This document shows, piece by piece, positions 22,721-48,491 of a DNA stretch of 64,000 nt. The position numbers were made by a program, and so were the translations under genes. The stretch's first letter is position 1. Each line of letters opens with the position of its first letter. Location of the stretch: contig CAJQLW010000018.1 in assembly GCA_905479325.1 (NCBI GenBank), positions 1-64,000 of the forward strand, given 5' to 3'. The notes under the pieces are model-generated. The model searched no databases and was not told the DNA's origin. It was given only the letters and a program-made list of their open reading frames with translations. Source of the DNA: an uncultured Flavobacteriales bacterium (GTDB taxonomy: Bacteria > Bacteroidota > Bacteroidia > Flavobacteriales_E > Vicingaceae).

Positions 22721-22754
22721 AAAACAAAAAAGCCCGCATCATTTGATGCGGGCT
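22721..22754 (-). terminator. Intrinsic terminator after the repeat-module protein gene
   Basis: A perfect 11-bp stem (AGCCCGCATCA at 22731-22741, TGATGCGGGCT at 22744-22754) lies 35 bases past the minus-strand stop codon at 22789. Read on the minus strand, it is followed by TTTTTGTTTT. It closes the SusCD-side arm of the glucan locus and separates it from recG. Confidence 0.92.
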
Positions 22755-22788
22755 TCTCTTGATTGAAATAACTAAAAGTTACACTCTC

Positions 22789-25662
22789 TTACTTTGCAAC
22801 CATGAACTTAGAAGTTTTGCTTCCTGACTCTGAATTAAGAATCATGAAATAAACTCCATTTTCGAAGTTAGCCACATCAATCTTATTGTCTAACACTGAT
22901 AGACTCTTTTGTAATACCACTTGTCCAATAGAATTAGTAACAACTACTTGATTAATATTTTCTAATAAAGAAGCATCTATTGTTACAAAATCATTTGCCG
23001 GGTTAGGGTATACAGTAAATGTTGGATTAGCCTTGAATTCTTGAATTCCTGTAATTAAAGAACCAAAAGAAATATTATCTAAATAATATGTTTCAGTAGC
23101 TGCTGGAACAACATTAAAATTGAAAAAGATAGATACTACGTCGTACGTATTTGCAAAATTTAATGCCTGTGTATTTGGCCCCGGGTTAGCAAAGTCAAAA
23201 GTTAAGGTATCCCAACCAGCTTTACTTGTAGTTGCTAAAGTTTCTACAAAAATTCCTGAATTTGCCTGATCTTCCACTTTAAGTAAAACAGGTATTCCAC
23301 TAGCTGCAGACCATACTTTTGCCTGCATTACTGTATTAGATGCTGCAAAAGGAATAGCAGAAGCTAACGCAGCACTACCCAATGTAGTTCCTGCCCAAGA
23401 TTGAGCTGTTGCTGGTTTGTCTACTTGTAGAACTAAATTAGAGGCATTTGTTGGGTCAGTAACAACCGCCGACACATTCCCTCCGAAAACTGTTACAGCA
23501 TAACTTACATTTGCAGTATCGTCCCAATTGATTGGCAAATCAATTTGAGCTTTTGACGGACCTGCTGAACCCATACCGAACCAAACATCATCAGTATAAT
23601 ACGTTTCGGTTGCAGTAGGAACCACATTAAAGTTAAAGAATAACGACACTTTATCGTAGGTATTTGCAAAATTTAAAGCTTGAGTATTAGGCCCAGGATT
23701 AGCGAAATCAAATGTTAACGTATCCCAACCAACTCTGCTTGTACTTGCAAGTGTTTCAACAAAAATTCCTGCGTTCGTTTGGTCTTCTACTTTCATTAAT
23801 ACAGGAATTCCACTTGCTGCAGACCAAATTCTTGCTTGCATAATAGTACTAGAAGCTGCAAAAGGAATCGCTGTAGCCAAAGAATTGCCCAAAGTAGTTC
23901 CTGCCCATGATTGAGCACTAGATGGCTTATCCGTCTTTAACACAATGTTAGCAGCATTTGTAGGATCAACAACAATTGAAGATCCATTACCACCAAAATC
24001 AATAACGGTATAATCTACATTGGCTGTATCATCCCAATTGATAGGCAAATTAATTTGAGCTTTTGATGGACCTGCTGAACCCATACCAAACCATACGTCA
24101 TCTGTATAATATGTTTCGGTTGCAGTAGGAACCACATTAAAGTTAAAAAACAAAGAAACTTTATCGTAAGTATTTGCAAAATTTAATGCCTGTGTATTCG
24201 GGCCAGGATTAGCAAAATCAAATGTTAGGGTATCCCAACCAACTCTGCTTGTGCTTGCTAATGTTTCTACAAAAATTCCTGCATTCGTTTGGTCTTCCAC
24301 TTTCATTAAAACAGGAATACCACTTGCTGCAGACCAAATTCTGGCTTGCATAATAGTACTTGAGGCTGCAAAAGGAATCGCTGTTGCCAAAGAATTACCT
24401 AAAGTTGTACCCGCCCAAGTCTGAGCTGTAGTTGGCTTGTCTGTTTTTAATACAATATTAGAAGCATTTGTAGGATCAACAACAATTGAAGAACCATTAC
24501 CACCAAAATCAATAACGGTATAATCTACATTGGCTGTATCGTCCCAATTGATAGGCAAATCAATTTGAGCTTTTGATGGACCTGTTGAACCCATTCCAAA
24601 CCAAACATCATCCGTATAATATGTTTCAGTTGCAGTAGGAACTACATTAAAGTTAAAAAACAAAGAAACTTTGTTGTATGTATTAGCAAAATTTAAAGCT
24701 TGTGCATTTGGTCCAGGATTAGCGAAATCAAACGTTAATGTATCCCAACCAACTCTGCTTGTGCTTGCTAATGTCTCAACAAATATTGCTGCGTTCGCCT
24801 GATCTTCAACTTTCATCAATACAGGTATACCACTTGCGGCAGACCAAACTCTTGCTTGCATTATTGTACTAGAAGCTGCAAAAGGAATCGCTGTAGCCAG
24901 AGAATTACCTAAAGTAGTTCCTGCCCAAGTTTGTGCCGTACTTGGCTTGTCAGTTTTCAAAACTAGGTTTGATGCATTTGTCGGATCAACTACTAATGAA
25001 GATACATTACCTCCAAAATCAATTACAGCGTAATTTACATTAGCCGTATCATCCCAATTTATAGGCAAATCAATTTGAGCTTTTGATGGCCCCGAAGAAC
25101 CACCACCAGCAAACTCAACATAATCAATTTGATAAGTCTCATTTGCAGTTGTTGGTGTATTACCAAAATTAAAGAACACTGCAATTTTGTCGTACACATT
25201 TGAAAAATTAATTGCCTGTGTACCCGGAACTTGATTGGCAAAATCGAAGCTTATTGTATCCCAACCGGCAACAGTAGTGTTTACCTGAGTTTCAACAAAA
25301 ATACCTGCGTTACCTTCGTTTTCCATTTTTAATCTAATAGGTGTGCCAATAACGGGAGCATAAATTCTAGCTCTCATAATGGTATTCCCTGCTGAAAAAG
25401 GAATTGCAGAAGCCAAAGAATCGTTACCTAGAACTACACCAGCCCAAGTTTGAGCTCCTATAGGCTTAATAACCTCCAAAACAATGTTTGAAGCGTTTGT
25501 TTGATCTGGCGCTAAGTAAGCGGTGTCACTACCAAAGCCAATAACCGTATAATCAACATTAGCAGTATCATCCCAAGTAATGGGCAGATCTATTTGTGAT
25601 TTCTGGCTCATCCCAATTAAGGAAATCGACGAGAGACAAAGAGAAAGTATTATTTTTTTCAT
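22789..25662 (-). CDS. T9SS-secreted protein with five tandem glycan-binding-like modules
   Basis: This 957-residue protein has a signal peptide (about 1-19, CLSSISLIGMSQ), five tandem modules of about 170 residues beginning at about 24, 197, 367, 537 and 707, and a T9SS type A sorting tail (VYPNPANDFVTI, then NGVYFMIL and a final KFMVAK). Each module opens with IDLPI[NT]WDDTANV and ends near ETYYxDDVWFG. Modules 3 and 4 differ at only about five residues. No catalytic motif is seen. The same fold pattern forms the C-terminus of the neighbouring PKD lipoprotein, so I infer carbohydrate binding. T9SS export should place it on the cell surface or free outside the cell. It is the last gene of the SusCD-side arm, separated by a terminator and probably having its own promoter. 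Confidence 0.8.
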   Translation of the reverse strand: MKKIILSLCLSSISLIGMSQKSQIDLPITWDDTANVDYTVIGFGSDTAYLAPDQTNASNIVLEVIKPIGAQTWAGVVLGNDSLASAIPFSAGNTIMRARIYAPVIGTPIRLKMENEGNAGIFVETQVNTTVAGWDTISFDFANQVPGTQAINFSNVYDKIAVFFNFGNTPTTANETYQIDYVEFAGGGSSGPSKAQIDLPINWDDTANVNYAVIDFGGNVSSLVVDPTNASNLVLKTDKPSTAQTWAGTTLGNSLATAIPFAASSTIMQARVWSAASGIPVLMKVEDQANAAIFVETLASTSRVGWDTLTFDFANPGPNAQALNFANTYNKVSLFFNFNVVPTATETYYTDDVWFGMGSTGPSKAQIDLPINWDDTANVDYTVIDFGGNGSSIVVDPTNASNIVLKTDKPTTAQTWAGTTLGNSLATAIPFAASSTIMQARIWSAASGIPVLMKVEDQTNAGIFVETLASTSRVGWDTLTFDFANPGPNTQALNFANTYDKVSLFFNFNVVPTATETYYTDDVWFGMGSAGPSKAQINLPINWDDTANVDYTVIDFGGNGSSIVVDPTNAANIVLKTDKPSSAQSWAGTTLGNSLATAIPFAASSTIMQARIWSAASGIPVLMKVEDQTNAGIFVETLASTSRVGWDTLTFDFANPGPNTQALNFANTYDKVSLFFNFNVVPTATETYYTDDVWFGMGSAGPSKAQIDLPINWDDTANVSYAVTVFGGNVSAVVTDPTNASNLVLQVDKPATAQSWAGTTLGSAALASAIPFAASNTVMQAKVWSAASGIPVLLKVEDQANSGIFVETLATTSKAGWDTLTFDFANPGPNTQALNFANTYDVVSIFFNFNVVPAATETYYLDNISFGSLITGIQEFKANPTFTVYPNPANDFVTIDASLLENINQVVVTNSIGQVVLQKSLSVLDNKIDVANFENGVYFMILNSESGSKTSKFMVAK
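23050..25594 (-). repeat. Five tandem ~510-bp coding repeats
   Basis: The boundary marker CAATTTGAGC recurs at 25071, 24561 and 23541, with TAATTTGAGC at 24051, a spacing of exactly 510 bases. The first module is slightly longer (about 519 bases) and the most divergent. The repeats keep frame and are similar enough for recombination to change their number, which could also collapse in assembly. Confidence 0.9.
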
Positions 25663-25751
25663 AATGTTTATTTGTAAATAATTTAAACAATAATACGAAG
25701 AAATAGTAAAATAAACTATAAGTCCTCAAGTTTTTATTTCAATATGCATAA

Positions 25752-25786
25752 AAAAAGCACTTTACAGCAATTGCAAAGCGCTTTTT
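25752..25786 (-). terminator. Terminator after the surface GH16 gene
   Basis: The arms AAAAAGCACTTTAC (25752-25765) and GCAAAGCGCTTTTT (25773-25786) pair with two mismatches. The T-run after the stem on the minus strand supports termination between the GH16 gene and the repeat-module gene. Confidence 0.75.
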
Positions 25787-25812
25787 CATCAACTAAAAAC
25801 TAAGAATTTTAC

Positions 25813-26937
25813 TTACTTCTGAAAGACTCTTACATAATCTACATACATGTATTGTGGAAATAAAGTAGAGCTATTTGGAGACCCTGGCCAATCCCCGCCA
25901 ACAGCTACGTTAAAAATTAAGAAAAACTTATTTTGAAACTCGCTCAAATCAGACGGAGTTATATCTAGTACTTTGTACCTTATGTCGTCTCTATACCATT
26001 CAATCTTCTGACTATCCCAGATGATAGAGAATACATGAAACTCGTGAGCAAAAGTTCCATTAGGCAGTCGGTTACTACCCCCTGATTGTGCTCTAGCACC
26101 ATTAAACTCCCAATGCGCTGTTCCGTGTATTTCATTGTCTCTGCCTGAACCGCCAACCAATTCCATGATATCTATTTCTCCGCATGAGGGCCAGCCTACC
26201 GTTGAAATGTTGTCTCCCAACATCCACAATGCAGGCCATAAACCCTGTCCAAAGGGTAAAGAGGCTCTAATGTCAATTCTGCCATATTGAAAACTCTGCT
26301 TATTTTGAGTCGTAATTCTAGAGGATGTATAACTGTTACCATTAAAGAACTCTTTTTTAGCTTGAATGGTTAGAATCCCGTTGTTAACAGATGTATTCTC
26401 TTGACGATAATATTGTAATTCATTGTTTCCCCAACCGCCATTTCCAGTGCCGATTTCGTAATTCCAATCTGCCGTTGACAAAGAAGTTCCGTTAAACTCA
26501 TCATTCCAAACCAAATTATACCCCGGATAAGACATTGGTGTAGTATAACCGGTAGTTGGTGGAATTCCATCGTTCACTGGCGCACCGACATATACTGTAA
26601 CTGATTTATTTACTTCAATGAAATTGTCGGCTGTAGAATGCGCTTTTACGTTAATGTTATAGGTACCAGAAGAAGAATACCGGAAGCTTGCTGTCCCATC
26701 ATTAGATTCTTCTGATTTTGAATTACCCGGCTCGGTAAAGGTTATTACAAAATAATTTGCATTTACTGCTGTAGCGCTAACACTTACCAACCCTTCAGTA
26801 GTTGAATCTACCACTACTTGAACTTGCAAGTTTGAGGGCAGAACCAGTTCGACTGCACTTTCATCCTCTTTGCATCCTGAGAATGCAATTATTGAACTCA
26901 AGCATGAAAAAATGAAAAATATTCTTAAAACTCGCAC
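25813..26937 (-). CDS. GH16 endo-beta-1,3-glucanase (laminarinase), surface lipoprotein
   Basis: This 374-residue lipoprotein has Cys22 in AFSGC followed by KEDE, which resembles the Bacteroidota surface lipoprotein export signal. A PKD-like immunoglobulin-fold domain occupies about 30-118. The GH16 catalytic domain spans about 135-374 with the nucleophile/acid-base motif GEIDIMELVG (Glu254, Asp256, Glu259), and WNDEFNG and GGWGNNELQYY are typical of the laminarinase subfamily. The role is to cleave laminarin at the surface before SusCD import. The ATG follows the PKD lipoprotein gene by 3 bases, in the susC-susD-PKD-GH16 order. Confidence 0.92.
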   Translation of the reverse strand: MRVLRIFFIFSCLSSIIAFSGCKEDESAVELVLPSNLQVQVVVDSTTEGLVSVSATAVNANYFVITFTEPGNSKSEESNDGTASFRYSSSGTYNINVKAHSTADNFIEVNKSVTVYVGAPVNDGIPPTTGYTTPMSYPGYNLVWNDEFNGTSLSTADWNYEIGTGNGGWGNNELQYYRQENTSVNNGILTIQAKKEFFNGNSYTSSRITTQNKQSFQYGRIDIRASLPFGQGLWPALWMLGDNISTVGWPSCGEIDIMELVGGSGRDNEIHGTAHWEFNGARAQSGGSNRLPNGTFAHEFHVFSIIWDSQKIEWYRDDIRYKVLDITPSDLSEFQNKFFLIFNVAVGGDWPGSPNSSTLFPQYMYVDYVRVFQK

Positions 26938-26940
26938 AAC

Positions 26941-28308
26941 CTATCTTTGTTCTATGTCGTCAATGTTATATGTATCTGTCCCAGTGGTTGCCCAACCTGG
27001 AAAAAACACAATTCTATCATATTGCCCAGATGCAGACCCTGCAAAATCAGCTTCATATTGAATCCATGCGGGAGTTGCTACAAGTGTTACATCAACTTCA
27101 ACACTGTTTTGAGGGTTAGACTGGTCTTCTAATTTAACTCTGCACGTTCCTCCAACAAATGGATTTGTAGAATTAAATAGTTTGAAGGCAATTTTGGTGT
27201 TTGTCGAAAAATCTAATTTTGACCCTAAGTCAACGTAAATGCCAGCGTCGTTAGAGCCACCTTTAATGGTTTGAAGCACGTTAGCACTTGTATTTATACC
27301 TGTTGAATTTGGGTTACTGACCACACTCGCAGTACTACCATTAAAGCTTTCGAAACCCGGATCTGTTCCCTCAAAATCGATAGGCAACTCAACACCGGTG
27401 CTTCCTCCTCCGCCAGAACCACCACCACCGGAACTTGGAACGTAACCTTCCGGAATTAATCTAATATACCACATTAAATCTGCATCACTATTGTCTACAA
27501 AAGCAATAAATAATTCATTTTCTGTCAATCTAACAATCCGGTATACCCTACTTCCTGTATAGTGTCCAAGAAAAGCTGAACCAGTTATCGACAAAGTTGT
27601 GTCCTGACCTTTTACAATATTCCAGTTTTCACCAATTTGGTCAGGTAATGGAGCAATTTTGTCAGGAGAAAGGTCAATTGCTCCGGGAAACTCTGAACCT
27701 TGTGCATCGTCAATGAAAACTTGTCCTTTAGTAATCATGTCGAAATTATAACCAGATAGCGTAAAAATATATCTATCATCATACATGCCAGCACCCACCT
27801 TCTCATTCGCTGCCGCAGCATACCACTTCGGATAGAAGCCATCAAAATCTGGATGAGAAGGCACAGGGCCAACTCCAAAATGACCTGCATTAGCCGAATC
27901 TACAACCCAAGTTTTACCTGATAAACTATCGGACCCCCCGGTAAGATATCGGAACAGAGGGTCATTGAGTAAAGTAGGGTCATCAGCTGCTATCACAATA
28001 CTGTCGGTTCGTTTAGCACTGCCACCTTTAGTAAATACGGTAAGCGTCACCGCATAAGTTCCCGCATTAGGATACGTCCCAACTGCATTTGGACCTTCTG
28101 CAGTAGTTCCATTTCCAAAATCCCACACCGCTACAACATCTGTTCTTGCTGCTTTAAATTCAAGAATATTAGGGCTAGTGGCGGAAGCTGAATATGTAAA
28201 GGCAGCATCAGCCGCTGTGGGCGCAACACCTAATTCGGGCTCATCATCTGTACAAGCAGAAAAAGCCAATACCGTGATAGCGAGTAAAAATAAAATATTC
28301 TTTTTCAT
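26941..28308 (-). CDS. PKD-domain surface glycan-binding lipoprotein (SusE position)
   Basis: This 455-residue lipoprotein has Cys19 followed by TDDE, a surface-export-like signal. A PKD domain spans about 35-108 (VWDFGNGTTAEGP, AGTYAVTLTVFTKGG). A middle beta domain of about 115-285 (GKTWVVDSANAGHFGVG, ENELFIAF) looks like that of glycan-binding lipoproteins. A natural glycine/serine linker at 291-305 leads to a C-terminal module (ELPIDFEGT to DTYNIDDIEQR) of the same family as the five repeats in the T9SS protein. The place right after susD is where SGBPs such as SusE sit. The likely role is to capture beta-glucan for the SusCD transporter. Confidence 0.85.
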   Translation of the reverse strand: MKKNILFLLAITVLAFSACTDDEPELGVAPTAADAAFTYSASATSPNILEFKAARTDVVAVWDFGNGTTAEGPNAVGTYPNAGTYAVTLTVFTKGGSAKRTDSIVIAADDPTLLNDPLFRYLTGGSDSLSGKTWVVDSANAGHFGVGPVPSHPDFDGFYPKWYAAAANEKVGAGMYDDRYIFTLSGYNFDMITKGQVFIDDAQGSEFPGAIDLSPDKIAPLPDQIGENWNIVKGQDTTLSITGSAFLGHYTGSRVYRIVRLTENELFIAFVDNSDADLMWYIRLIPEGYVPSSGGGGSGGGGSTGVELPIDFEGTDPGFESFNGSTASVVSNPNSTGINTSANVLQTIKGGSNDAGIYVDLGSKLDFSTNTKIAFKLFNSTNPFVGGTCRVKLEDQSNPQNSVEVDVTLVATPAWIQYEADFAGSASGQYDRIVFFPGWATTGTDTYNIDDIEQR

Positions 28309-28320
28309 ATTATTTATATT

Positions 28321-29802
28321 TTAATATCCTGAGTTTTGATTCCAATTACCTCCTGCCAAAGAAATTTCAATTTGTGGAATTGCGAATAATTCGTGTTTCC
28401 CTGTTTGAAAACCATTAATTTCTGTGGCCGCTTTACCAGTTCTAACCAAGTCAAAAAAGCGATGACCTTCACCAGACAGCTCGTACCTTCTTTCTGACCA
28501 AATTGCTTCTGTTAGAGATTGACCACCTGCACTAATTGGAGCAAGATTAACCCTTGCACGAACTTCATTCAAGTATAACAACGCTTGAGCGTCATTGTTG
28601 GATCTGTTGTGCGCTTCAGCCGCCATTAAAAGTACATCAGCATATCGTACTACAATGTTGTTAACAGGACTTGTCAAATCATTATCTGGCAAACCTATTT
28701 CGCCTTGTTTTTTAATGTATTTATTGTTGTAAAAACCTGTGTGACCACCACCACCAATTGCATAAGTAATACTAGTAGCATTTGGCTGTTGGTTGATAAA
28801 AGAATCTAAATTTAACACCGTAGCATCCCGTCGAATATTATCTGCAGCTTCGAAAGAATCATACAAATCTTGGGTTGGTAAATTATAACTATTCCCATCG
28901 CCATAAATGGGTCCATTGTATTGACGAATTCCTTGAAATCCAGGAGCTGCATTACCTTCTAAGCAAATCAGACATCCATAACCTCCGCCTTCAAGACCGC
29001 TATATTGTACATCAAAAACAACTTCTGAGTGACCTTCATTACCGACAACAAAAAGGTTACGATAATCAGCAATTAGTGAATACTGCATTGAATTGATAAC
29101 CTGATCTAAACTGGCAGCACTTTCAGCGAACTTATTTTGATAAAGTTGAACTTTCCCAAGCAAAGCTAACGCTGCCCACTTATTCACTCTCCCTTTAACG
29201 GGGTTAACAGCATTTAAGTTTGAAGCTGCAAAGTTCAAATCTGATTCAATTTGCGCATAGACATCTTCTTTACTACTTCGCTCAATTTCCGTTACTTCAT
29301 CAGCGCCTAATCTTTTGTCAATCACTAATGGAACATCACCGAAATACTTCACCAACTGAAAATAATAATACGCTCTTAAGAATGTAGCTTCTGCTATAAT
29401 TTGACTTTTACCATCGAAGTCGATGTTGTTTTTATTTTCTAAAATAAAATTAGCTCTAGCAATTCCAGCGTAGTTCCACTGAAAAACACTTCGCAATTCT
29501 CTGTTCACTGAACCATGCGTCATCGCTTCAATTTCATGTAGACCTTGAGAATCAGTGACACTCTCACCTCCTGCAATTGAATTATCTGAAGCTATTTCTC
29601 CAATCCATAAATTCATAAAAGAACCTTGTAATAAATCATACGCGCCAATTAGAGCAAGTTCGTAATGCGATGGTTCAGTAAAGTAATTGTCAGCATCTTG
29701 ACTGAATGGAGGCTCTAAGTCCAAAAATTTCTCACATGCCGTCAATGAAAATAAAATAGTGAATAAAACTATTCCAAAATTTTTGTAATTAATCTTTCTC
29801 AT
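28321..29802 (-). CDS. SusD-like glycan-binding lipoprotein
   Basis: This 493-residue SusD homologue has a lipoprotein signal to Cys23 (FSLTACEKFLDLEP). The SusD N-terminal region (EPSHYELALIGAYDLLQGSF), helical repeats (AEATFLRAYYYFQLVKYFGDVPLV, about 140-165) and the C-terminal signature AIWSERRYELSGEGHRFFDLVRTGKA are all present. SusD lids the SusC barrel and presents the glycan. The start lies 4 bases after the susC stop. Specificity for beta-1,3-glucan is inferred from neighbours, not from the sequence. Confidence 0.95.
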   Translation of the reverse strand: MRKINYKNFGIVLFTILFSLTACEKFLDLEPPFSQDADNYFTEPSHYELALIGAYDLLQGSFMNLWIGEIASDNSIAGGESVTDSQGLHEIEAMTHGSVNRELRSVFQWNYAGIARANFILENKNNIDFDGKSQIIAEATFLRAYYYFQLVKYFGDVPLVIDKRLGADEVTEIERSSKEDVYAQIESDLNFAASNLNAVNPVKGRVNKWAALALLGKVQLYQNKFAESAASLDQVINSMQYSLIADYRNLFVVGNEGHSEVVFDVQYSGLEGGGYGCLICLEGNAAPGFQGIRQYNGPIYGDGNSYNLPTQDLYDSFEAADNIRRDATVLNLDSFINQQPNATSITYAIGGGGHTGFYNNKYIKKQGEIGLPDNDLTSPVNNIVVRYADVLLMAAEAHNRSNNDAQALLYLNEVRARVNLAPISAGGQSLTEAIWSERRYELSGEGHRFFDLVRTGKAATEINGFQTGKHELFAIPQIEISLAGGNWNQNSGY

Positions 29803-29806
29803 TTTT

Positions 29807-32800
29807 TTAAAATTTAAAATTAAATCCGCCCATTACAGTTCTGGCCTGCGGGTAAAATCCGTAATCAACTCCCGCAGCTAAAGGTCCTCCTGCTGAACCG
29901 ATTTCCGGATCAAATCCTCTGTACTTAGTTACGGTAAGGAGATTGTTAACAGCTACATAAAAACGTATTGAATTTGACTTGATTTTCTTGGTAAGATTTT
30001 CTGGTAAAGTATAGCCTATTTGCATGTTCTTTATTCTCATAAACGATCCATTTTCAACAAAATAATCAGAAAACTCACCATTTCTATTTGCTTCGTCAGT
30101 AACTCTTGGGTTTTCATTTGAAGTTCCTGTACCCACCCAACGATCAATTACATAATCCAATTGATTTGCAAAAGGTTGCTGGCGCTCATAGTTTCTTATA
30201 ATCTCTTGTCCTACAGCCGAAAATACGTTCATTGAAAAATCGAAATTCTTATATTCCAGACTAACGTTGAATCCAAAAGTAAAATCCGGTATCGCTGAAC
30301 CAATTTCCTTTCGATCAGAGTCATCATTAAAACTAATCACACCATCTCCATTTTGGTCCACAAATCTCAAATCACCGGGCTTAGCTCCCTCTTGTTTCAC
30401 TGCAGCATTCTCAATTTCTTCTTGAGATTGAAAAACTCCATCTGTTTCGAAGCCATGGAAATATCCTATTGCATAGCCCTCTTCAAACCTTGTGGCAACT
30501 CCGCCTCCTACTCCGAAAGCGGCTCCAGGAATAAACTCAACTCCCTCAGGTGTTTTAAGTACTTCGTTTCTTAAGTAGGTAGTATTAAAGCTTACAGAAT
30601 ATTTTAATTCCTTCTGACGATCAGAGTAGTAAGCTAGTTCTAATTCAATTCCTTTATTCGACACATCTCCTGCATTTACAATTGGTGATTGACCTCCGGG
30701 ACCGTTTGTTCCGAGAACTGCAGAAACTTCTGGTTGAAACAATAAGTCTTTCGTGTTCTTAATAAAATAGTTTGTTGTAATATTGAAATTATCACCAACA
30801 ACAAGATCTAATCCTAAGTTAAATTGTCTTGTACTTTCCCATCTTAAATCAGGATTTGAAGCTCTTCCAATCGCTACACCTTGAACAATAACGTCATTAA
30901 ATACATAAACACCTTCTCCATCTAATTGAGCTCGATAGGCAAAATTTTGAATTTGATCATTACCCGATATACCATAACTAGCTCTTAATTTAGCGAATGT
31001 TATTTTTTTAAGTTTAAAAAATTCTTCTTCAGAAATTAACCATGCAGCCGAAATGGTTGGAAAAGTTCCAAATCTATTATTAGGTCCAAATTTTGAAGAC
31101 CCATCTCGTCTTACAATTAAAGATGCTAAGTATTTACCTTTATATCCATATTCTCCTCTGAAAAAAGTCGAAAGTAACCGCTCTTCGTATTCAAATGATC
31201 CGGTATTATTTAAAAATCCGCCTGGAGCGAGGTTTGCTGAGATATCAGCAAAGTCTACTGAATTGCCCGGGATATTAAAAGCCGAACCATTTAACTGCTC
31301 CCCATATCTTTTAAATACGGAAACACCAAACGTTCCTTTAACCGAATGATCTTCATTAAAAATTCGCTCATAGTTTAAATAACTTTCAGCAGTAACATCA
31401 ACAAAGGTAGATCTTGATTCAAAAACCCCGGCTCCTCTTTCTATAAATACACTATCTGCAATTTCAACTTGAGTTGGATCTAGGTTTGCATTCAAAGCTG
31501 TGTTTTGAGCTTTACCTGGACCGTACCAAACTAGCGGAGAGAAAGACTTAAAGTCAACAGCAGCGTAATTGTAGTTTACCCGATTTGTAAAAGTGAAGTT
31601 GTCATTAATCTTATAAATCAATTCCTCTTTACCCACAATTTTGTTAGTCGAAGATAAATTCTCACTATTCTCAATCTGCGCTAGTGGATTTATAATATCA
31701 GTCACCTCCTCTAAATAGGAATAACGGCCATCTGCTGTTCGAACTGGCTCATTTGGAAAAGCATTTATAGTATTATAAAGCACTGACCCAATACCATTCT
31801 CAGGCAGTGCTCTTCTTTCTTCGTTTGTATATAAGATGACTGAATTCAGTTTGAACTTTTCATTCAATTGATTTCCGAGATTTAAACGAGCATTGTAACG
31901 CTCAAAATTTGACTTATCACCACCAACAATTCCATCTTGTGTAAAATAAGACACTCCAGCTGAGTACGTGGAACTTTTATTACCTCCTAGCACAGAGAAA
32001 TTATAATTCTGAATCATTGCTGATTGAAATATTTCATCCTGCCAATCCGTTCCTTCCCCTAAAGCTGTATTGTTAAATGGTAATGGCTTGCCTGATGAAC
32101 CTAGCGCTTCATTTTTGATAACTGCATATTCTGTGGCATTTAGTAAATCTAACCTTCTTGCTGTATTTTGGACTCCATAGTATCCACTAAATTCTACCCT
32201 TGGTGCCGAATTTAATGCCCCTTTTTTAGTTTCAATAATGATTACACCGTTAGCAGCTCTAACACCATAAATACCTGCACTTGCATCTTTCAGAACGTTC
32301 ACCGAAGCAATGTCAGATGGGTTTAAAGCGTTCAAGCCTTCTGAATCGTAAACAACCCCGTCCACCAATATTAACGGATCGTTATCTCCAAATGTTGAAA
32401 GGCCTCGAATTCGTATACTTGAAGCTCCCCCAGGAGAGCCCGAATTTGTATTAATGGCAACCCCTGAAACTTGTCCTTGTAGTGCTTGGTCAACCCGAGC
32501 TACATTCAGTTTTTCCACATCTTCACCTCCTACTTGACTCGTAGCACCTGTTAATGTTTTCTTAGTTGACGTACCATAACCTACTACAACCACTTCATCA
32601 ATATCGGTTGTCGCTTCGGCTAAAGTAATATCAATTTTCTCGCGTCCTGCAACAGCAATATTTTGAGTGGCATACCCTAAGTAAGAAAATTGCAATATCG
32701 CAGTTTTAATATTTGAAACCTTAATGGTATAGTTCCCATCTATATCTGTTGCAACTCCATTTGTTGTCCCTTTTTCAACCACACTCGCACCCGGAATGGA

Positions 32801-32905
32801 TAAACCGTCCTGACCTTTAATTTTACCGGTCACGGTTCCTTCTTGAGCAAAGAGATTACTCCCAATGAATAATATAGAAGCAAAAAGAATTAAGTTCTTC
32901 ATCAT
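29807..32905 (-). CDS. SusC-like TonB-dependent glycan transporter
   Basis: This 1032-residue outer-membrane transporter has a signal peptide (about 1-20), a carboxypeptidase-D-like regulatory domain (about 24-100, TVTGKIKGQDGLSIPGASV), a TonB box region (DEVVVVGYG at about 102-110), a plug (ALQGQVSGVAI, SIRIRGLSTFGDNDPLILVDGVVYD) and a beta-barrel to the C-terminal phenylalanine. It imports large oligosaccharides with TonB energy. It is first in the minus-strand arm, 294 bases from the divergent regulator gene. Among SusC types, the NAGDVSNKGIELELAY and GDLRFVDQNGDGVI motifs are standard. Confidence 0.97.
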   Translation of the reverse strand: MMKNLILFASILFIGSNLFAQEGTVTGKIKGQDGLSIPGASVVEKGTTNGVATDIDGNYTIKVSNIKTAILQFSYLGYATQNIAVAGREKIDITLAEATTDIDEVVVVGYGTSTKKTLTGATSQVGGEDVEKLNVARVDQALQGQVSGVAINTNSGSPGGASSIRIRGLSTFGDNDPLILVDGVVYDSEGLNALNPSDIASVNVLKDASAGIYGVRAANGVIIIETKKGALNSAPRVEFSGYYGVQNTARRLDLLNATEYAVIKNEALGSSGKPLPFNNTALGEGTDWQDEIFQSAMIQNYNFSVLGGNKSSTYSAGVSYFTQDGIVGGDKSNFERYNARLNLGNQLNEKFKLNSVILYTNEERRALPENGIGSVLYNTINAFPNEPVRTADGRYSYLEEVTDIINPLAQIENSENLSSTNKIVGKEELIYKINDNFTFTNRVNYNYAAVDFKSFSPLVWYGPGKAQNTALNANLDPTQVEIADSVFIERGAGVFESRSTFVDVTAESYLNYERIFNEDHSVKGTFGVSVFKRYGEQLNGSAFNIPGNSVDFADISANLAPGGFLNNTGSFEYEERLLSTFFRGEYGYKGKYLASLIVRRDGSSKFGPNNRFGTFPTISAAWLISEEEFFKLKKITFAKLRASYGISGNDQIQNFAYRAQLDGEGVYVFNDVIVQGVAIGRASNPDLRWESTRQFNLGLDLVVGDNFNITTNYFIKNTKDLLFQPEVSAVLGTNGPGGQSPIVNAGDVSNKGIELELAYYSDRQKELKYSVSFNTTYLRNEVLKTPEGVEFIPGAAFGVGGGVATRFEEGYAIGYFHGFETDGVFQSQEEIENAAVKQEGAKPGDLRFVDQNGDGVISFNDDSDRKEIGSAIPDFTFGFNVSLEYKNFDFSMNVFSAVGQEIIRNYERQQPFANQLDYVIDRWVGTGTSNENPRVTDEANRNGEFSDYFVENGSFMRIKNMQIGYTLPENLTKKIKSNSIRFYVAVNNLLTVTKYRGFDPEIGSAGGPLAAGVDYGFYPQARTVMGGFNFKF

Positions 32906-39531: not shown

Positions 39532-40776
39532 ATGAAACCGCTCTTCAAAATATCCATTCTTTTCGCCATTGTTTCGCTTTTTGCGTGCACTGAGAAGAAA
39601 GTTAAAAGCCTTTCGGCTAAGGATATTTTGGGCAATTCGGATTTCCCCGCTATTTGTTACGGCGGCTTCAGAGAAACGACAAGAGATTTGTGTCCCTCCG
39701 TTGAAGAGATTAAAGAAGACATGAAAATTCTTGCTGCCTTGAATTTAAAGATCATCCGCACGTACAATACCCAACTTTTCCACCATGCTGAAAGAGTGCT
39801 GCAAGCCATCCAAGAATTAAAGGAAGAAGATTCGTCGTTCGAAATGTATGTAATGTTAGGGGCTTGGATTGAATGTGAAGGCGCATTCACAGGCACTAGA
39901 GATCATTCAAAGGAGAATGTTACGAGTAATCAGGCAGAAATCAAAAGAGCAATTGAGTTAACGCAGCAATATCCGGATATCGTAAAAATAATTGCGGTAG
40001 GAAACGAATCGATGGTACATTGGGCGGAAACGTACTCTGTCCTTCCAAAGGTTGTTTTACATTATGTCAAAGAGTTACAAAAACGAAAAACACAGGGCGA
40101 TTTAGATTCTACTTTATGGATTACAAGTTCAGACAACTTTGCCTCTTGGGGTGGAGGATCAACCGATTACCATAACAACGATATAAATGAATTAATAAAA
40201 GCGGTAGATTACATTTCTATGCACACCTACCCTTTTCATGACACACACTACAATCCAGCCTTTTGGCAAATTGACTCAAGTGAAATCATGAAAGACAGTA
40301 TTCTTCTAATTAAAGAAGGCATGGACAGAGCTGCTGAGTATGCCATTGCTCAATTTGAATCAACAAAAGAATATGTTCATCAAATTGCACCAAACAAACC
40401 GGTGCACATTGGTGAAACGGGATGGGCCTCCTCTGCTTATACCAAATACGGTAAAAATGGATCGCATGCAGCTGATGAATACAAGCAAAAGCTTTACTAC
40501 GATTACATAAGAAATTGGTCGAATGAGAATAAAGTTTCTTGTTTCTTTTTTGAAGCTTTTGATGAGCCATGGAAAGACCAAACTGAAGAATCAGCATCTG
40601 AAAATCATTTCGGGCTGATTAACATCAACAGCGAAGTGAAATATGTTTTGTGGAATCAGGTCGATTCAGGCAAATTCCAAGGATTGAGACGAAACAATAA
40701 ACCACTTACAAAGACTTTTAATGGAGAATTAAACAGCTTGTTAAGCATTTCATACCCTCCGGCAACTAAACCTTAA
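39532..40776 (+). CDS. GH17 beta-1,3-glucanase lipoprotein
   Basis: This 414-residue GH17 enzyme has a lipoprotein signal to Cys19 (IVSLFACTEKK) without an acidic export signal, which points to a periplasmic location. The acid/base is Glu159 in VGNES and the nucleophile Glu295 in HIGETGWAS. Aromatic ISMHTYPFHD and FFFEAFDEPWK line the active site. GH17 is a recurring partner of GH16 in laminarin loci. Its likely job is to cut imported laminarin fragments. Confidence 0.9.
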   Translation: MKPLFKISILFAIVSLFACTEKKVKSLSAKDILGNSDFPAICYGGFRETTRDLCPSVEEIKEDMKILAALNLKIIRTYNTQLFHHAERVLQAIQELKEEDSSFEMYVMLGAWIECEGAFTGTRDHSKENVTSNQAEIKRAIELTQQYPDIVKIIAVGNESMVHWAETYSVLPKVVLHYVKELQKRKTQGDLDSTLWITSSDNFASWGGGSTDYHNNDINELIKAVDYISMHTYPFHDTHYNPAFWQIDSSEIMKDSILLIKEGMDRAAEYAIAQFESTKEYVHQIAPNKPVHIGETGWASSAYTKYGKNGSHAADEYKQKLYYDYIRNWSNENKVSCFFFEAFDEPWKDQTEESASENHFGLININSEVKYVLWNQVDSGKFQGLRRNNKPLTKTFNGELNSLLSISYPPATKP

Positions 40777-42328: not shown

Positions 42329-43522
42329 ATGAAACACCTTATTCAAATCCTCTTTATTCAACTTTCCTGCGTGGTTATGTGCGCTTGTAATAACAGCTCA
42401 GCGGAAAAAGAAACAACTGCAACTGACGAGCAATCTGCCGAAATAACGTCGGTAACCGTTCAATTAGACTCTTCTCGCTTTTTGGTCGACATACCTCAAA
42501 CAGGACGCTACAAAGTGAGTGTTTGGGCAAGTTCAGATTCTTCAACTACAGTCTGGATTGAAGATTATATTGGCAATAAAGATGGACGAACTTACAACAT
42601 AACAGGTTCACTCGAGGTAAAAGACACAGGTTTAGGTTCCGTTGATGGCTCTCCGCTTGCCGAAGGAAAGCATGAAATGCAACTCCACTATGAAAGTGGT
42701 AATTCTGCAGATAGCATTCGCTTTGAGTTGATTCAAAAACACGTTTACACAGACAGCGTTTTAGTGCAAAACATGAGTGGCTCCGAATGGAAATTAGTAT
42801 GGTCAGATGAGTTTAATGGTAATAGTTTACCTGACGATACAAAATGGAGCTACAACATTGGCGATTGGGGTTGGGGCAACAACGAACTTCAGTACTACAC
42901 AATGAACGAAACGCGCAATGTGAGGCAAGAAAATGGCTCTTTAATTATTGAAGCGCATAAAAATGAAAATGACAACAAATGGACATCAGCCCGTTTAACT
43001 ACGCAAAGCAAAGTTTCTTTCAAATATGGTCGTATTGAATTTAGAGCCCAAGTTCCTGTCGGAAGAGGAACTTGGGCTGCAGGATGGTTGTTGGGAGACG
43101 CCTACGAAGATGAAATATCTTGGCCATACTGCGGAGAAATTGACGTTTTAGAATGTGTTGGATATGAAATTAACGACACAACAGGAAATGGAATAAATCA
43201 CGCAACTTGCCACACAAGAGCGTATTACTTTAAACAAGGAAATCAAATAGGAAGTGAGATAGAAGTAGATAGTATGAATTCTAAATTTCATACTTATGCT
43301 GTGGAATGGTACCCCAATAAAATTGAAGGATACTTAGACGGAGAATTATATTACACTTACGACAAAATTGCCAACGAACTCGAATGGCCTTTCAATCGAC
43401 CGCAAAACTTAATAATTAACCTTGCCATTGGTGGAGGTTGGGGAGGTGCTAAAGGAGTGGACAGTAGTTATTCTTCTCATCAATATAGTTTAGATTACAT
43501 TAGAGTATACGAGAAACAATGA
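42329..43522 (+). CDS. GH16 beta-1,3-glucanase lipoprotein, second copy
   Basis: This 397-residue lipoprotein has a signal to about Cys20 (VVMCACNNSS) with no acidic export signal, so it is probably periplasmic. An N-terminal beta-sandwich carbohydrate-binding-like domain (about 45-145, with YKVSVWASSDSSTTVWIEDY) precedes the GH16 domain (about 150-397). Catalytic motif GEIDVLECVG gives Glu270, Asp272 and Glu275. WSDEFNG and WGNNELQYYT match the surface GH16 in the other arm. Overlaps the GH30 start by 4 bases. Confidence 0.9.
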   Translation: MKHLIQILFIQLSCVVMCACNNSSAEKETTATDEQSAEITSVTVQLDSSRFLVDIPQTGRYKVSVWASSDSSTTVWIEDYIGNKDGRTYNITGSLEVKDTGLGSVDGSPLAEGKHEMQLHYESGNSADSIRFELIQKHVYTDSVLVQNMSGSEWKLVWSDEFNGNSLPDDTKWSYNIGDWGWGNNELQYYTMNETRNVRQENGSLIIEAHKNENDNKWTSARLTTQSKVSFKYGRIEFRAQVPVGRGTWAAGWLLGDAYEDEISWPYCGEIDVLECVGYEINDTTGNGINHATCHTRAYYFKQGNQIGSEIEVDSMNSKFHTYAVEWYPNKIEGYLDGELYYTYDKIANELEWPFNRPQNLIINLAIGGGWGGAKGVDSSYSSHQYSLDYIRVYEKQ

Positions 43523-45018
43523 ACGTCAAAATCACTATTATTTTTTTGCTATTAGTGGGTGTTTTGTGCCACGACAAACAGAAGGGAAAGCTGAACCTTC
43601 AACTGTTCCAAACCTCGGCAAAGGGCGATCAACTGAAAGCGATAGAACTGGCCTTACCTAAAGGTATGATTAAGGATACGCTTGCCCTGTTTCCTGAACG
43701 AACATTTCAAACATTAACTGGGTTCGGAGGAGCTTTTACAGAGGCTTCGGCAAGCTTGCTAAACCAAATGAGTCCTGAAAAAAGGAAAGAAATTCTGAAT
43801 GCTTACTTTGCTGAAAGTGGCGCAAATTACTCGCTTACAAGAACTCATATTAATTCTTGCGACTTTTCAATCAATAACTATTCTTACGCTGAAATAGAAA
43901 ACGACACTTTACTGAAGCATTTTAGCATAGAACCTGACAAGGCAGATTTAATTCCGATGATTAAAGAAGCCCAAGACATTTCACCTGAAGGATTCAAAAT
44001 AATAGCATCTCCGTGGACAGCTCCCCCATGGATGAAAACGAACAATGCATGGAATGGAGGTAAATTAAAAAAAGAGTACTTCCCTACTTGGGCTAATTAT
44101 TTTTCAAAATACATTGCTGCCTATAAAAATGAAGGAATAGACATTTGGGCTGTTACAGTTGAGAATGAACCTTTAGGGAATGACTCAAATTGGGAAAGCA
44201 TGCACTATTCGCCAGAAGAAATGGCAGAATTTGTTAAAAATCACCTAGGACCAAAATTCGAGGAGGACAAACTCCCTCAAAAAATATTGGTTTACGATCA
44301 AAATCGCGGAAAAGAGTTGAAAGAGTGGGCTGATGTGTTACTAAAGGATAAAGATTTAGAGAAATACATTTATGGAACTGCAGTTCATTGGTACACAAGC
44401 ACAAACCAAGTTTTAGAAGAATCGTTGAACTACACGCATGAAGTAGCTCCCTCAAAGGCAATTATACAAACCGAAGGATGTATTGACTCTGAAATTCCGC
44501 ATTGGAAAGATGACCAATGGTATTGGAGCAAAGAGGCCACCGATTGGGGATATGATTGGGCTCCGGAAGAAGACAAAAAAGACCACCCTAAGTATGTTCC
44601 CGTTTATCGCTATGCAAGAGATATGATTGGTTGCATGAACAATTGGGTTGAAGGTTGGGTAGACTGGAACATGGTTTTAAACAAGCAAGGAGGTCCGAAC
44701 TTGGCTAAAAATTGGTGTGTTGCCCCTGTGATTGTAGATCCTGATAAAGATGAAGTATACTACACTCCGCTTTATTACACCATGGTTCATTTTAGCAAGT
44801 TTATTCGACCTAATGCGCAAAGAATAGACCTAGAGCTATCGGACAAAGACTTACTTGCTTCAGCTGCTAGAAATGAAGATGGTAGTACAGTAGTTGTTGT
44901 TCTTAATATGACTAAAAAAACAAAACAGTTTATCGTTAAACTGAATGGGAAAGAACGGCCAATTGAAATAGTTGGCGAAGCGTTACAAACAATTTTTATA
45001 AAAGCAGAAAATAGTTAG
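43519..45018 (+). CDS. GH30 beta-glucanase (probable beta-1,6-glucanase)
   Basis: This 499-residue GH30 enzyme has the TIM-barrel start LTGFGGAFTEASA, PWTAPPWMK, the acid/base Glu217 in VENEP and the nucleophile Glu319 in IIQTEGC. The C-terminal beta-sandwich is typical of the family. GH30 in laminarin loci removes beta-1,6-linked glucose branches that block GH16 and GH17; the specificity here is inferred. The N-terminus is hydrophobic (IIFLLLVGVLC) but lacks a canonical lipobox, so lipidation is unsure; periplasmic export is likely. Confidence 0.9.
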   Translation: MNVKITIIFLLLVGVLCHDKQKGKLNLQLFQTSAKGDQLKAIELALPKGMIKDTLALFPERTFQTLTGFGGAFTEASASLLNQMSPEKRKEILNAYFAESGANYSLTRTHINSCDFSINNYSYAEIENDTLLKHFSIEPDKADLIPMIKEAQDISPEGFKIIASPWTAPPWMKTNNAWNGGKLKKEYFPTWANYFSKYIAAYKNEGIDIWAVTVENEPLGNDSNWESMHYSPEEMAEFVKNHLGPKFEEDKLPQKILVYDQNRGKELKEWADVLLKDKDLEKYIYGTAVHWYTSTNQVLEESLNYTHEVAPSKAIIQTEGCIDSEIPHWKDDQWYWSKEATDWGYDWAPEEDKKDHPKYVPVYRYARDMIGCMNNWVEGWVDWNMVLNKQGGPNLAKNWCVAPVIVDPDKDEVYYTPLYYTMVHFSKFIRPNAQRIDLELSDKDLLASAARNEDGSTVVVVLNMTKKTKQFIVKLNGKERPIEIVGEALQTIFIKAENS

Positions 45019-45026
45019 AAGTAAAT

Positions 45027-48000
45027 ATGGGACAGGATTCAATATATTTTGGAGATGCTAAATTAAAGTTTAGCGAGAAAGAAGTTAATGGGAAGTATAC
45101 AACACTTGATGGTGAAGATTTTTTTATCATTGAGAATTACTCTAAAATGCGACCCTTTTTTATGACAATTGTGAGCGCCAACGACCACTGGTTGTTTATG
45201 GCTAGCAACGGAGGTCTTTCTGCAGGCCGTAAAAACCCTGAGCAATCATTATTCCCTTATTACTCCGATGATAAAATAATCAAGTCTGCGCGCCATACTG
45301 GTTCCCAAACTCTTTTTAGAGTAAAAACAAAGGAAGGAATTAAACTGTGGGAGCCCTTTAACGATTCATTTGAAGGGATTTATAACACCACTTCGAATTT
45401 ATATAAAAACCGAGAGGGGAATAAAATAATATTTGAAGAAACAAACCACGACCTGAACCTTTGTTTTCGATACGGATGGATGTTTTCTGAAAAATACGGC
45501 ATTGTAAAAAAATCAGAACTGATTAACTTAAGCACTGCCAACACTCAAGTGGAAGTGCTAGATGGAATTAGAAATATACTTCCGTATGGTGTAAGCAGTG
45601 CGTTACAAAGTATTCGAAGCACCTTGGTTGATGCCTATAAAAGGTGTGAACTTGATCGTAAAACGAATTTAGGTATTTACTCCCTGAGTTCAATGATTGT
45701 TGATAAAGCTGAGCCGAGTGAAGCATTGAAAGCCAGCACAGTTTGGTCTGTGGGAATTGAAACAACATCAATTTTACTTTCGACTCTGCAGTTAAAAAAC
45801 TTTCGCAATGGGCTTGGCACTACATCAGAATTTGACATTAAAGCAGAAAAGGGTGCGTTTTTCATTACCGCCACAAAAAATTTAGAACCGAATAAACCTG
45901 CAATTTGGCTAACCGTTGCTGAAGTAAATCAGTCTGTTACTAAAATTTCAAAATTGCGAAGTGAGCTTTCAAACAACGAATCGTTACTCGACTCAGTTCT
46001 TCAAGATGTTGAAAAAAACAAGCAAGACTTACGAAAGAAAATTGGGCTAACCGATGGTATTCAACTTTCAAAAGACCGTCTTTCTACAGGACGACACTTT
46101 TCTAATGTCCTCTTCAACATTATGCGAGGTGGTACCTTCGATGATCAATATGAAATAGAAACCGCCGATTTTTTACTGCACATTAAACAAATGAACATGC
46201 AGGATTATCAGCGATTAAAACCTGTTTTAAAAGCCATTCCTGATCAAATATCCTATCATCAGTTACGTCATTTTTTGGTAGCATCTAAACACCAACATAC
46301 CATGAGGTATTATTTGGAGTATTTGCCACTTTCTTTTAGCAGAAGACACGGTGACCCAAGTAGACCATGGAACCATTTTTCAATTGAAACAAAGGATGAT
46401 GACGGAAATAAACTCAGAAACTTTGAAGGAAACTGGCGTGACATTTTCCAAAATTGGGAAGCCTTAGCGTTTAGTTATCCTGAATTCGCTCTTGGCATGG
46501 TGGCCAAATTTGTGAATGCCTCTACCTTAGACGGCTACAACCCCTACCGAATCTCTAGAGAAGGAATTGACTGGGAAGTTGTTGAACCAAACGACCCTTG
46601 GTCGCACATTGGTTATTGGGGAGACCACCAAGTAATCTACCTCTGTAAATTGTTAGAAATTTCCTTGCATTATCAGCCTGAAAGGTTAAAAGGAATGTTG
46701 AACAACAAAATTTTTACCTATGCCAATGTTCCTTACCGTATAAAAGGTTACGATGCGATTGCCAGCAACCCTAAAGATACAATAGACTTTGACCACGAAC
46801 TAGAAGCTCAAATTAAGGAAAAAGTAAGTAAAGTTGGCTCTGATGGTAAACTAGTATGGAACAAGCACGACCAATTAGAAAGGGTAAATCTTACGGAGAA
46901 ACTTTTAGTAATGGTGCTTACCAAATTGTATAATTTCATTCCTGATGCCGGTATTTGGTTAAATACTCAACGCCCAGAATGGAATGATGCAAATAACGCG
47001 TTAGTCGGAAATGGAGTTTCTATGGTAACGCTATATTACCTAAGAAGACTACTGAACTTTGCAAGCGAAATTTACAAAGAGCAAGAAGGACTAACTACAG
47101 AAATAAACAAACCTGTAGTTGACTTATTAGAAGCACTAAAACGAGGATTTACTTACCACAGTGCAAATCTGAACAAACCTTTTAGCGACAATCAAAGACG
47201 CCAATTTATGGATGATTTTGGTGTTGCGGGAGAACATTACAGAACGACAGCCTATGCTGGATTTACCGGAGAGAAAAGGAAGCTGAAGAATCAAGACATG
47301 CTGGATTTTTTCTCACTTGCTCTAAAATTCTTAGAAGATACCATTGACAAAAATGAACGAGCAGATGGCCTTTTTCATTCCTATAATTTAGTTGAACTTT
47401 CTGAAGGAAAAGCAACTTATACATACTTATATGAAATGTTAGAAGGTCAAGTATCTGCTTTGAGTGCGCATTACCTGAACCCAGAAAAAGCCCTAGCAGT
47501 GCTAGATTCTCTCAAAATGAGCAAAATGTACAGAGAAGATCAGTACAGTTATATGCTTTACCCGGACAGAGAACTTTCTCCTTTTCTAGAAAAGAACAAT
47601 ATTGATCCCGAATTATTGAAAGGCTCTCAGCTCTTAGAGAAAATGTTATCGAAAGGAAATACTGAAATCATTGAACGAGACATAGAGGGAAAACTTCACT
47701 TTAACGGCAATTTTCATAATGTAAATGATTTAAAGAAAGCCCTTCAATCCATCAAAGATTTTGAATTGAAGAAACTGCTAAAAAGAGAAACGAAACAATT
47801 TCTGGTTGCCTTTGAATCAGTTTTTGACCATAAAGCATTCACCGGACGTTCAGGAGCATTTTACGGCTACGAAGGCTTAGGGAGTATCTACTGGCACATG
47901 GTTTCAAAACTACTACTAGCCATTCAAGAAAATATTTACTTAGCTAAAAAAGCGGAAGCTTCTGAAGAAATCTTAGGCAGACTGATTGAGCATTATTATG

Positions 48001-48491
48001 AAATACGCGCGGGTATTGGAGTGAATAAATCTCCAGAGCTTTATGGTGCATTCCCTACTGACGCATATTCTCATACCCCAAAATATGCCGGCGCAAAACA
48101 ACCGGGTATGACTGGTCAAGTGAAAGAAGACATTATCAACAGATGGGCTGAATTAGGTATTCATGTGCAAGACGGCTGTTTAACTTTTGATCCTTTTATT
48201 TTACGGAAATCAGAGTGTATTACCGAATCTGCTACTTTATCGTATTACAACCACAATGGGGAAGCTTGTAGAATTGAAGCGCCTAAAAGTTCATTAGCGT
48301 TTACGTATTGTCAAATTCCTATTATTTACCAAATTTCAAAGAAAACAGAACTAATCATTACTTATTCCGATGGAACGAGTAATACCATTAAAAATAATTC
48401 TTTAAGCTTTCTTGAATCAAAAGATGTATTTAAACGCTCAGGGAAAATTGAATCAATCTTGGTTCATATTTTAGAAAATAAATTGATTTAA
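45027..48491 (+). CDS. GH149-like beta-1,3-glucan phosphorylase (GH94-related)
   Basis: This 1154-residue cytoplasmic protein has no signal peptide. It matches the large GH149-type inverting phosphorylases by length and by PEWNDANNALVG, where Asp654 aligns with the catalytic acid of GH94 enzymes. SFSRRHGDPSRPWNHFSI and TGRSGAFYGYEGLGSIYWHM are other blocks I associate with the family. It would split beta-1,3-gluco-oligosaccharides with phosphate into alpha-glucose-1-phosphate, saving one ATP per residue. Phosphoglucomutase, needed to reach glucose-6-phosphate, is not in the window. It is last in the operon and followed by a terminator. Linkage specificity is inferred from neighbours. Confidence 0.82.
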   Translation: MGQDSIYFGDAKLKFSEKEVNGKYTTLDGEDFFIIENYSKMRPFFMTIVSANDHWLFMASNGGLSAGRKNPEQSLFPYYSDDKIIKSARHTGSQTLFRVKTKEGIKLWEPFNDSFEGIYNTTSNLYKNREGNKIIFEETNHDLNLCFRYGWMFSEKYGIVKKSELINLSTANTQVEVLDGIRNILPYGVSSALQSIRSTLVDAYKRCELDRKTNLGIYSLSSMIVDKAEPSEALKASTVWSVGIETTSILLSTLQLKNFRNGLGTTSEFDIKAEKGAFFITATKNLEPNKPAIWLTVAEVNQSVTKISKLRSELSNNESLLDSVLQDVEKNKQDLRKKIGLTDGIQLSKDRLSTGRHFSNVLFNIMRGGTFDDQYEIETADFLLHIKQMNMQDYQRLKPVLKAIPDQISYHQLRHFLVASKHQHTMRYYLEYLPLSFSRRHGDPSRPWNHFSIETKDDDGNKLRNFEGNWRDIFQNWEALAFSYPEFALGMVAKFVNASTLDGYNPYRISREGIDWEVVEPNDPWSHIGYWGDHQVIYLCKLLEISLHYQPERLKGMLNNKIFTYANVPYRIKGYDAIASNPKDTIDFDHELEAQIKEKVSKVGSDGKLVWNKHDQLERVNLTEKLLVMVLTKLYNFIPDAGIWLNTQRPEWNDANNALVGNGVSMVTLYYLRRLLNFASEIYKEQEGLTTEINKPVVDLLEALKRGFTYHSANLNKPFSDNQRRQFMDDFGVAGEHYRTTAYAGFTGEKRKLKNQDMLDFFSLALKFLEDTIDKNERADGLFHSYNLVELSEGKATYTYLYEMLEGQVSALSAHYLNPEKALAVLDSLKMSKMYREDQYSYMLYPDRELSPFLEKNNIDPELLKGSQLLEKMLSKGNTEIIERDIEGKLHFNGNFHNVNDLKKALQSIKDFELKKLLKRETKQFLVAFESVFDHKAFTGRSGAFYGYEGLGSIYWHMVSKLLLAIQENIYLAKKAEASEEILGRLIEHYYEIRAGIGVNKSPELYGAFPTDAYSHTPKYAGAKQPGMTGQVKEDIINRWAELGIHVQDGCLTFDPFILRKSECITESATLSYYNHNGEACRIEAPKSSLAFTYCQIPIIYQISKKTELIITYSDGTSNTIKNNSLSFLESKDVFKRSGKIESILVHILENKLI

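Follow-up and report, generated by a model that had tools for sequence, protein, structure and literature searches.

A type IX secretion-tailed array of five carbohydrate-binding-like modules at an apparent laminarin locus of an uncultured Flavobacteriales bacterium

What a protein of five tandem modules would contribute at the end of a glucan locus is the question raised by a 957-residue protein encoded on contig CAJQLW010000018.1 of an uncultured marine Flavobacteriales bacterium, of which the first 64,000 nucleotides were analysed (hereafter, the window). A second question is posed by its central modules, which are nearly identical as protein and diverged at silent sites. The initial annotation had described a five-module protein with a type IX secretion system (T9SS) tail, and this was borne out by the open reading frame, the spacing of the modules and the tail (PF18962, E 2.8e-13; TIGR04183, E 1.3e-12). 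The gene comprises the following features:

22789..25662, (-) strand: module-protein gene, 957 aa, non-catalytic, with signal peptide, five tandem CBM-like modules and T9SS type A tail
25603..25662, (-) strand: N-terminal signal peptide, aa 1-20 (MKKIILSLCLSSISLIGMSQ), judged by inspection
25084..25602, (-) strand: module 1, divergent, of the orthologous first-module class
24574..25083, (-) strand: module 2, central class
24064..24573, (-) strand: module 3, central class (AlphaFold model pLDDT 95; top PDB match 8QX6)
23554..24063, (-) strand: module 4, central class (5 aa and 51 nt differences from module 3)
23041..23553, (-) strand: module 5, of the orthologous last-module class
22798..23013, (-) strand: T9SS type A sorting domain, aa 884-955 (PF18962 and TIGR04183)

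The modules start at residues 21, 194, 364, 534 and 704, giving spacings of 173, 170, 170 and 170 residues, and modules 2, 3 and 4 are each exactly 510 bases long. The description of the modules as nearly identical held for modules 2-4 only, given that modules 1 and 5 share 62% and 77% amino acid identity, respectively, with module 3. Domain searches with Pfam and NCBIfam returned no enzyme family above cut-off in the 957-residue protein, and no glycoside hydrolase (GH) or polysaccharide lyase match, in keeping with the earlier statement that a catalytic motif is absent. Neither database holds a domain that covers the modules; weak Pfam matches to Big_4, DUF7369 and CBM_35_2 were each fragmentary or below cut-off, and were rejected as real domains. 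Inspection of the region between the signal peptide and module 1 revealed no lipobox cysteine. A second protein in the same genome (L042, G000:C46:75-1094), situated at a contig start, carries two modules of the same family and a T9SS tail.

Module structure was predicted and compared with known carbohydrate-binding module (CBM) folds, as had been proposed with the initial annotation. The five modules alone gave a model of pLDDT 53, whilst a 69-sequence alignment yielded a model of module 3 with a pLDDT of 95 and a pTM of 0.90, consisting entirely of beta strands arranged as a beta-sandwich. Its top fold match in the PDB was 8QX6, 'Novel laminarin-binding CBM X584' (TM 0.74/0.75, rmsd 3.1), the ligand being taken solely from that title, followed by structures of CBM11, CBM22, CBM30 and CBM4 among some unrelated proteins. 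A profile of the module matched 8QX6 over its full length (residues 2-164; E 1.3e-19; 26% identity), the single 957-residue sequence matched it at E 9e-4, and two tryptophans, W53 and W113, were invariant across 56 modules. Both the sequence match and the predicted fold thus suggest that the module is a relative of CBM X584 that would likewise bind laminarin. The 8QX6 molecule is named 'PKD domain-containing protein', and a neighbouring gene in the window also encodes a PKD-type protein. Unlike 8QX6, to which its modules are only 26% identical, the window gene encodes five tandem copies as a separate, T9SS-tailed protein.

The genes around the array have the content expected of a laminarin locus, as listed below:

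25813..26937, (-) strand: GH16 lipoprotein-like endo-1,3-beta-glucanase (laminarinase; 4crq, E 2.5e-70)
26941..28308, (-) strand: SusE-position protein resembling a surface glycan-binding protein B (SGBP-B); aa 7-287 match 7kv5/7kv6/7kv7, and aa 303-455 form one module
28321..29802, (-) strand: SusD-like glycan-binding lipoprotein (domain match)
29807..32905, (-) strand: SusC-like TonB-dependent transporter (domain match)
39532..40776, (+) strand: GH17 enzyme of beta-1,3-glucanase type (6fcg, E 7.6e-146)
42329..43522, (+) strand: second GH16 enzyme
43519..45018, (+) strand: GH30 enzyme
45027..48491, (+) strand: beta-1,3-oligoglucan phosphorylase of GH149 type (6hq6, full length, E 0)

The N-terminal part of the SusE-position protein matched 7kv5 with an E value of 7e-43; this entry, 7kv6 and 7kv7 are presumably Bacteroides SGBP-B structures. 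The last ~150 residues of the same protein belong to the module family of the array (profile-profile 99.5%). SGBP-B has a place in beta-1,3-glucan loci (PMC7157763), and laminarin is bound by the SGBP-B of Bacteroides fluxus and by its marine relatives (PMC11345257). Between the glucanase genes, the (+) strand also encodes apparent Entner-Doudoroff enzymes and a sugar transporter, named by eye from their sequences. Relative to the variant-1 laminarin polysaccharide utilization locus, which contains GH149, GH17, GH16, GH158 and GH30 (PMC10877868), the window holds GH149, GH17, two GH16 and GH30 genes. It differs in that no GH158 was seen within the 64,000 nucleotides and in that the SusCD operon side ends with an additional, T9SS-tailed multi-module protein. 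The proposal that the array, placed at the end of a glucan locus, binds beta-glucan multivalently is therefore well supported: homology and fold similarity to 8QX6, the laminarin-type genes of the locus and the presence of the module in the neighbouring SGBP-B-like protein all point to binding at the level of sequence and model.

The position of the array gene in this operon is qualified by two hairpins:

25745..25790, (-) strand: terminator-like hairpin in the GH16/module-gene intergenic region, with a 16-bp stem and U-run (z -4.0)
22726..22759, (-) strand: terminator-like hairpin 3' of the module gene, from the terminator consensus scan

The first of these is absent from the list produced by the terminator consensus scan. 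A hairpin occurs at the same place in two sister-species loci, L011 (z -3.8) and L012 (z -3.2), and the corresponding stretch of a third, L010, gave z -0.7 as folded. Since a strong hairpin stands between them, co-expression of the GH16 and module genes is not assured; its presence suggests that the module gene may be expressed at another level than the upstream operon, or separately.

With its sorting domain, and in a genome that encodes the PorU sortase (1354 bits) and SprA (split over two contigs), the 957-residue protein is predicted to be a type A cargo of the T9SS. The genome (2.7 Mb) contains about 90 matches to T9SS tails. The PorU sortase alone is no proof that this cargo stays on the cell. 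The earlier suggestion that the protein coats cells or particles stood in so far as the tail predicts attachment to the cell surface; it was framed more narrowly than the evidence, and the coating of particles is only a possibility.

A T9SS tail, repeats and a non-catalytic make-up are also typical of surface adhesins. The modules might accordingly bind beta-glucan on algal cells, detritus or extracellular matrix and so attach the cell, or a coat that it releases, to particles instead of supplying soluble laminarin to a transporter; in some homologues found outside glucan loci the module is indeed accompanied by MAM, fn3 and lamin-tail domains. We consider such a role unlikely, given that the gene lies directly behind the SusE and GH16 genes in this genus and, in total, in 12 loci besides the window, that the import complex has the same module on its SGBP-B-like member, and that laminarin is a soluble storage glucan (PMC10877868).

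The conservation of this arrangement emerged from a search for homologues and their module counts, in which 28 loci around module-protein homologues were examined. The order SusE-GH16-module protein recurred in 12 of the 28, with SusC and SusD in view in 11 of these (L009 is cut before SusD) and a NUDIX regulator at the opposite end of the operon in 10. The proteins of these twelve further loci carry one to four modules, relative to five in the window. In three other loci (L013, L015 and L016) the module protein is found beside a NUDIX regulator of this kind, and in L016 the glycosidase next to it is of the GH158 type (9oro, E 2e-99; 6pal, E 3e-68), a family of endo-beta-1,3-glucanases (PMC7157763). 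These NUDIX-regulator loci may represent a second beta-1,3-glucan context, the GH158-type gene having been seen in L016. Also in L016 (1599-3826, (-) strand) is a pair of proteins, of which one matches CBM9 and CBM30 and the other is CBM11-like below threshold (20.2 bits, cut-off 27); together with the GH158-type gene and the module protein they possibly constitute a beta-glucan uptake cluster lacking SusCD. Many module homologues lie outside any visible glucan locus, hence its occurrence is not limited to beta-glucan loci. A class-wide sample of 80 genomes yielded the module in 11, and the 46 genomes of the window's own family yielded it in 7; the order-level set consisted of the same 46 genomes.

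This wider distribution bears on whether the module might bind another glycan, such as an alpha-glucan, or be no more than a passive spacer for placing the tail or other domains. T9SS proteins from ten homologue loci (L013, L015-L017, L020, L022, L024, L026, L028 and L032) carry, beside the module, CBM48/CBM20/X25-like domains, which are usually linked to alpha-glucans. Some of these proteins (L017, L026 and L028) still fall within SusCDE-GH16 loci, and that of L016 lies beside the GH158-type gene. With a laminarin-binding CBM as the nearest structure and two aromatic residues invariant in 56 modules, either alternative appears quite improbable.

We thus propose that the 957-residue protein is probably a T9SS-delivered, non-catalytic, multivalent laminarin-capture protein, a role in which glucan binding, surface fixation, avidity and hand-over to enzymes are each predicted from sequence and structural models. 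The protein would be exported by Sec and then cross the outer membrane through the T9SS, whereupon its tail would be cut by PorU and the protein fixed on the outer surface. Each of the five beta-sandwich modules may hold a stretch of beta-1,3-glucan, such that several weak sites would jointly retain a single chain, or a group of them, close to the surface GH16 enzyme, the SGBP-B-like protein and the SusCD transporter. Gain and loss of the central module by unequal crossing-over would cause copy number (1-5) to vary between species, whilst strong purifying selection would keep all copies competent; the surplus of synonymous differences that separates modules 3 and 4 would then be the residue of that selection on a middle-aged duplication.

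Several known systems offer partial parallels. Like the SGBP-B of Bacteroides beta-1,3-glucan loci (PMC7157763), the window protein is non-catalytic and is encoded in a SusCD locus with a GH16 gene, notwithstanding the hairpin that precedes its own gene. SGBP-B is lipid-anchored, whereas the window protein lacks a lipobox and uses the T9SS; with the SGBP-B-like neighbour encoded two genes upstream it shares only that neighbour's C-terminal module. Hence it may work like an SGBP and is not classed as one. CBM92, a multivalent beta-glucan CBM that is attached to enzymes, has three sites on one beta-trefoil (PMC11039641). The window protein would resemble it in offering several putative beta-glucan sites per polypeptide; unlike that of CBM92, its multivalency would come from tandem beta-sandwich modules and would involve no enzyme. 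Both the binding module and the laminarin locus are of known kinds, and a limited literature search found no description, at this position, of a tandem array that stands alone, carries a T9SS tail and varies in length.

Between modules 3 and 4, 5 of the 170 residues and 51 of the 510 bases are different, and 43 codons carry silent changes. The method of Nei and Gojobori (NG86) gave dN 0.017, dS 0.53 and an omega of 0.032 for this pair (YN00: dN 0.009, dS 0.87), and omega was 0.039 between modules 2 and 3 and 0.068 between modules 2 and 4. The dN/dS values among modules 2-4 (0.032-0.068, NG86) are thus far from 1, and confirm the earlier view that the amino acid sequence is kept by purifying selection. 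The constraint is an ordinary one, because orthologous central modules of sister species gave equivalent omega values (0.036-0.058), and any special constraint on modules 3 and 4 was thereby ruled out.

Silent sites of the flanking genes were mostly saturated between species and their dS was not estimable, hence third-position identity was used in place of dS for comparisons between species. This measure was 0.74 for modules 3 and 4, whilst the fresh pairs formed by modules 2 and 3 of L011 and of L012 reached 0.97 and 0.92, respectively, in agreement with the initial reading that the duplication is not fresh; between species it was about 0.5-0.6, and for RecG 0.42-0.49. As the flanking genes are mostly silent-saturated between species, the split of modules 3 and 4 appears younger than the species splits. 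The silent-site excess is the product of ordinary purifying selection on a duplication of intermediate age, not fresh and not ancient.

Recent gene conversion across the whole of modules 3 and 4 was rejected (dS 0.53; longest run of identical codons 15, p 0.24). Within the first 34 codons, 3 of the 48 changed codons were observed where 9-10 were expected (scan-corrected p about 0.08), which is suggestive only of local gene conversion. The 43 synonymous codon differences, next to 5 amino acid differences, could in principle also reflect selection that drives the silent sites of the copies apart, preventing recombination or slippage in the array. This seems extremely improbable when near-identical DNA copies are present in sister species (L011, dS 0.04; L012, dS 0.15), when the omega of modules 3 and 4 matches that of orthologue pairs, and when nearly every change falls at a third position and the pattern is unremarkable (26 transitions, 25 transversions).

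Ordinary purifying selection therefore suffices for the silent sites, and the history of the array itself was traced within the genus, where module counts are 3 (L009), 3 (L010), 4 (L011), 4 (L012) and 5 (the window). Many of the relatives are draft or metagenome assemblies, hence these counts may be lower bounds, especially where copies are near-identical. In trees of all 19 modules the first modules clustered together, as did the last modules, whilst the central modules clustered by species, with moderate support for the central trio of the window (0.84 nucleotide, 0.74 amino acid). The simplest account of these trees would be an ancestor with first, central and last modules, the central one having been multiplied or homogenised separately in three lineages. 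In L011 (9491-10510), modules 2 and 3 are identical over codons 13-170 and module 3 equals module 4 in codons 1-12. This junction has the apparent pattern expected of an unequal crossover at the conserved WDD codons, which lie close to where the module begins, and a separate gene conversion is a possible alternative.

A more far-reaching reading, which we put forward tentatively and hold to be doubtful, is that the array acts as an evolvable dial of avidity on a T9SS-delivered laminarin trap. In each species, unequal crossing-over would have added copies of the central module repeatedly, giving 1-5 modules at an unchanged place in the locus, and the last module and that of the neighbouring SGBP would have been exchanged between species by recombination, such that glucan-binding capacity would evolve faster than the import complex. 

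Thirteen loci keep the array in the same place and range from one to five copies; they form a ready-made series for relating copy number to avidity and to growth at low laminarin, and the sister species display repeat-number change with fresh, intermediate and older copies visible.

Two local similarities between species were also observed. The C-terminal module of the SusE-position protein (26944-27402) is 95% identical in amino acids to its counterpart in L010 (7671-8129), with a third-position identity of 0.73-0.87 relative to about 0.5 for the rest of the gene and its neighbours, which suggests that this module was swapped between species by recombination. Module 5 (23041-23553) has a third-position identity of 0.72 to L009 (3059-3571), where the values for module 1, the tail and RecG are 0.49, 0.60 and 0.42, respectively, and is possibly a second case of such exchange.
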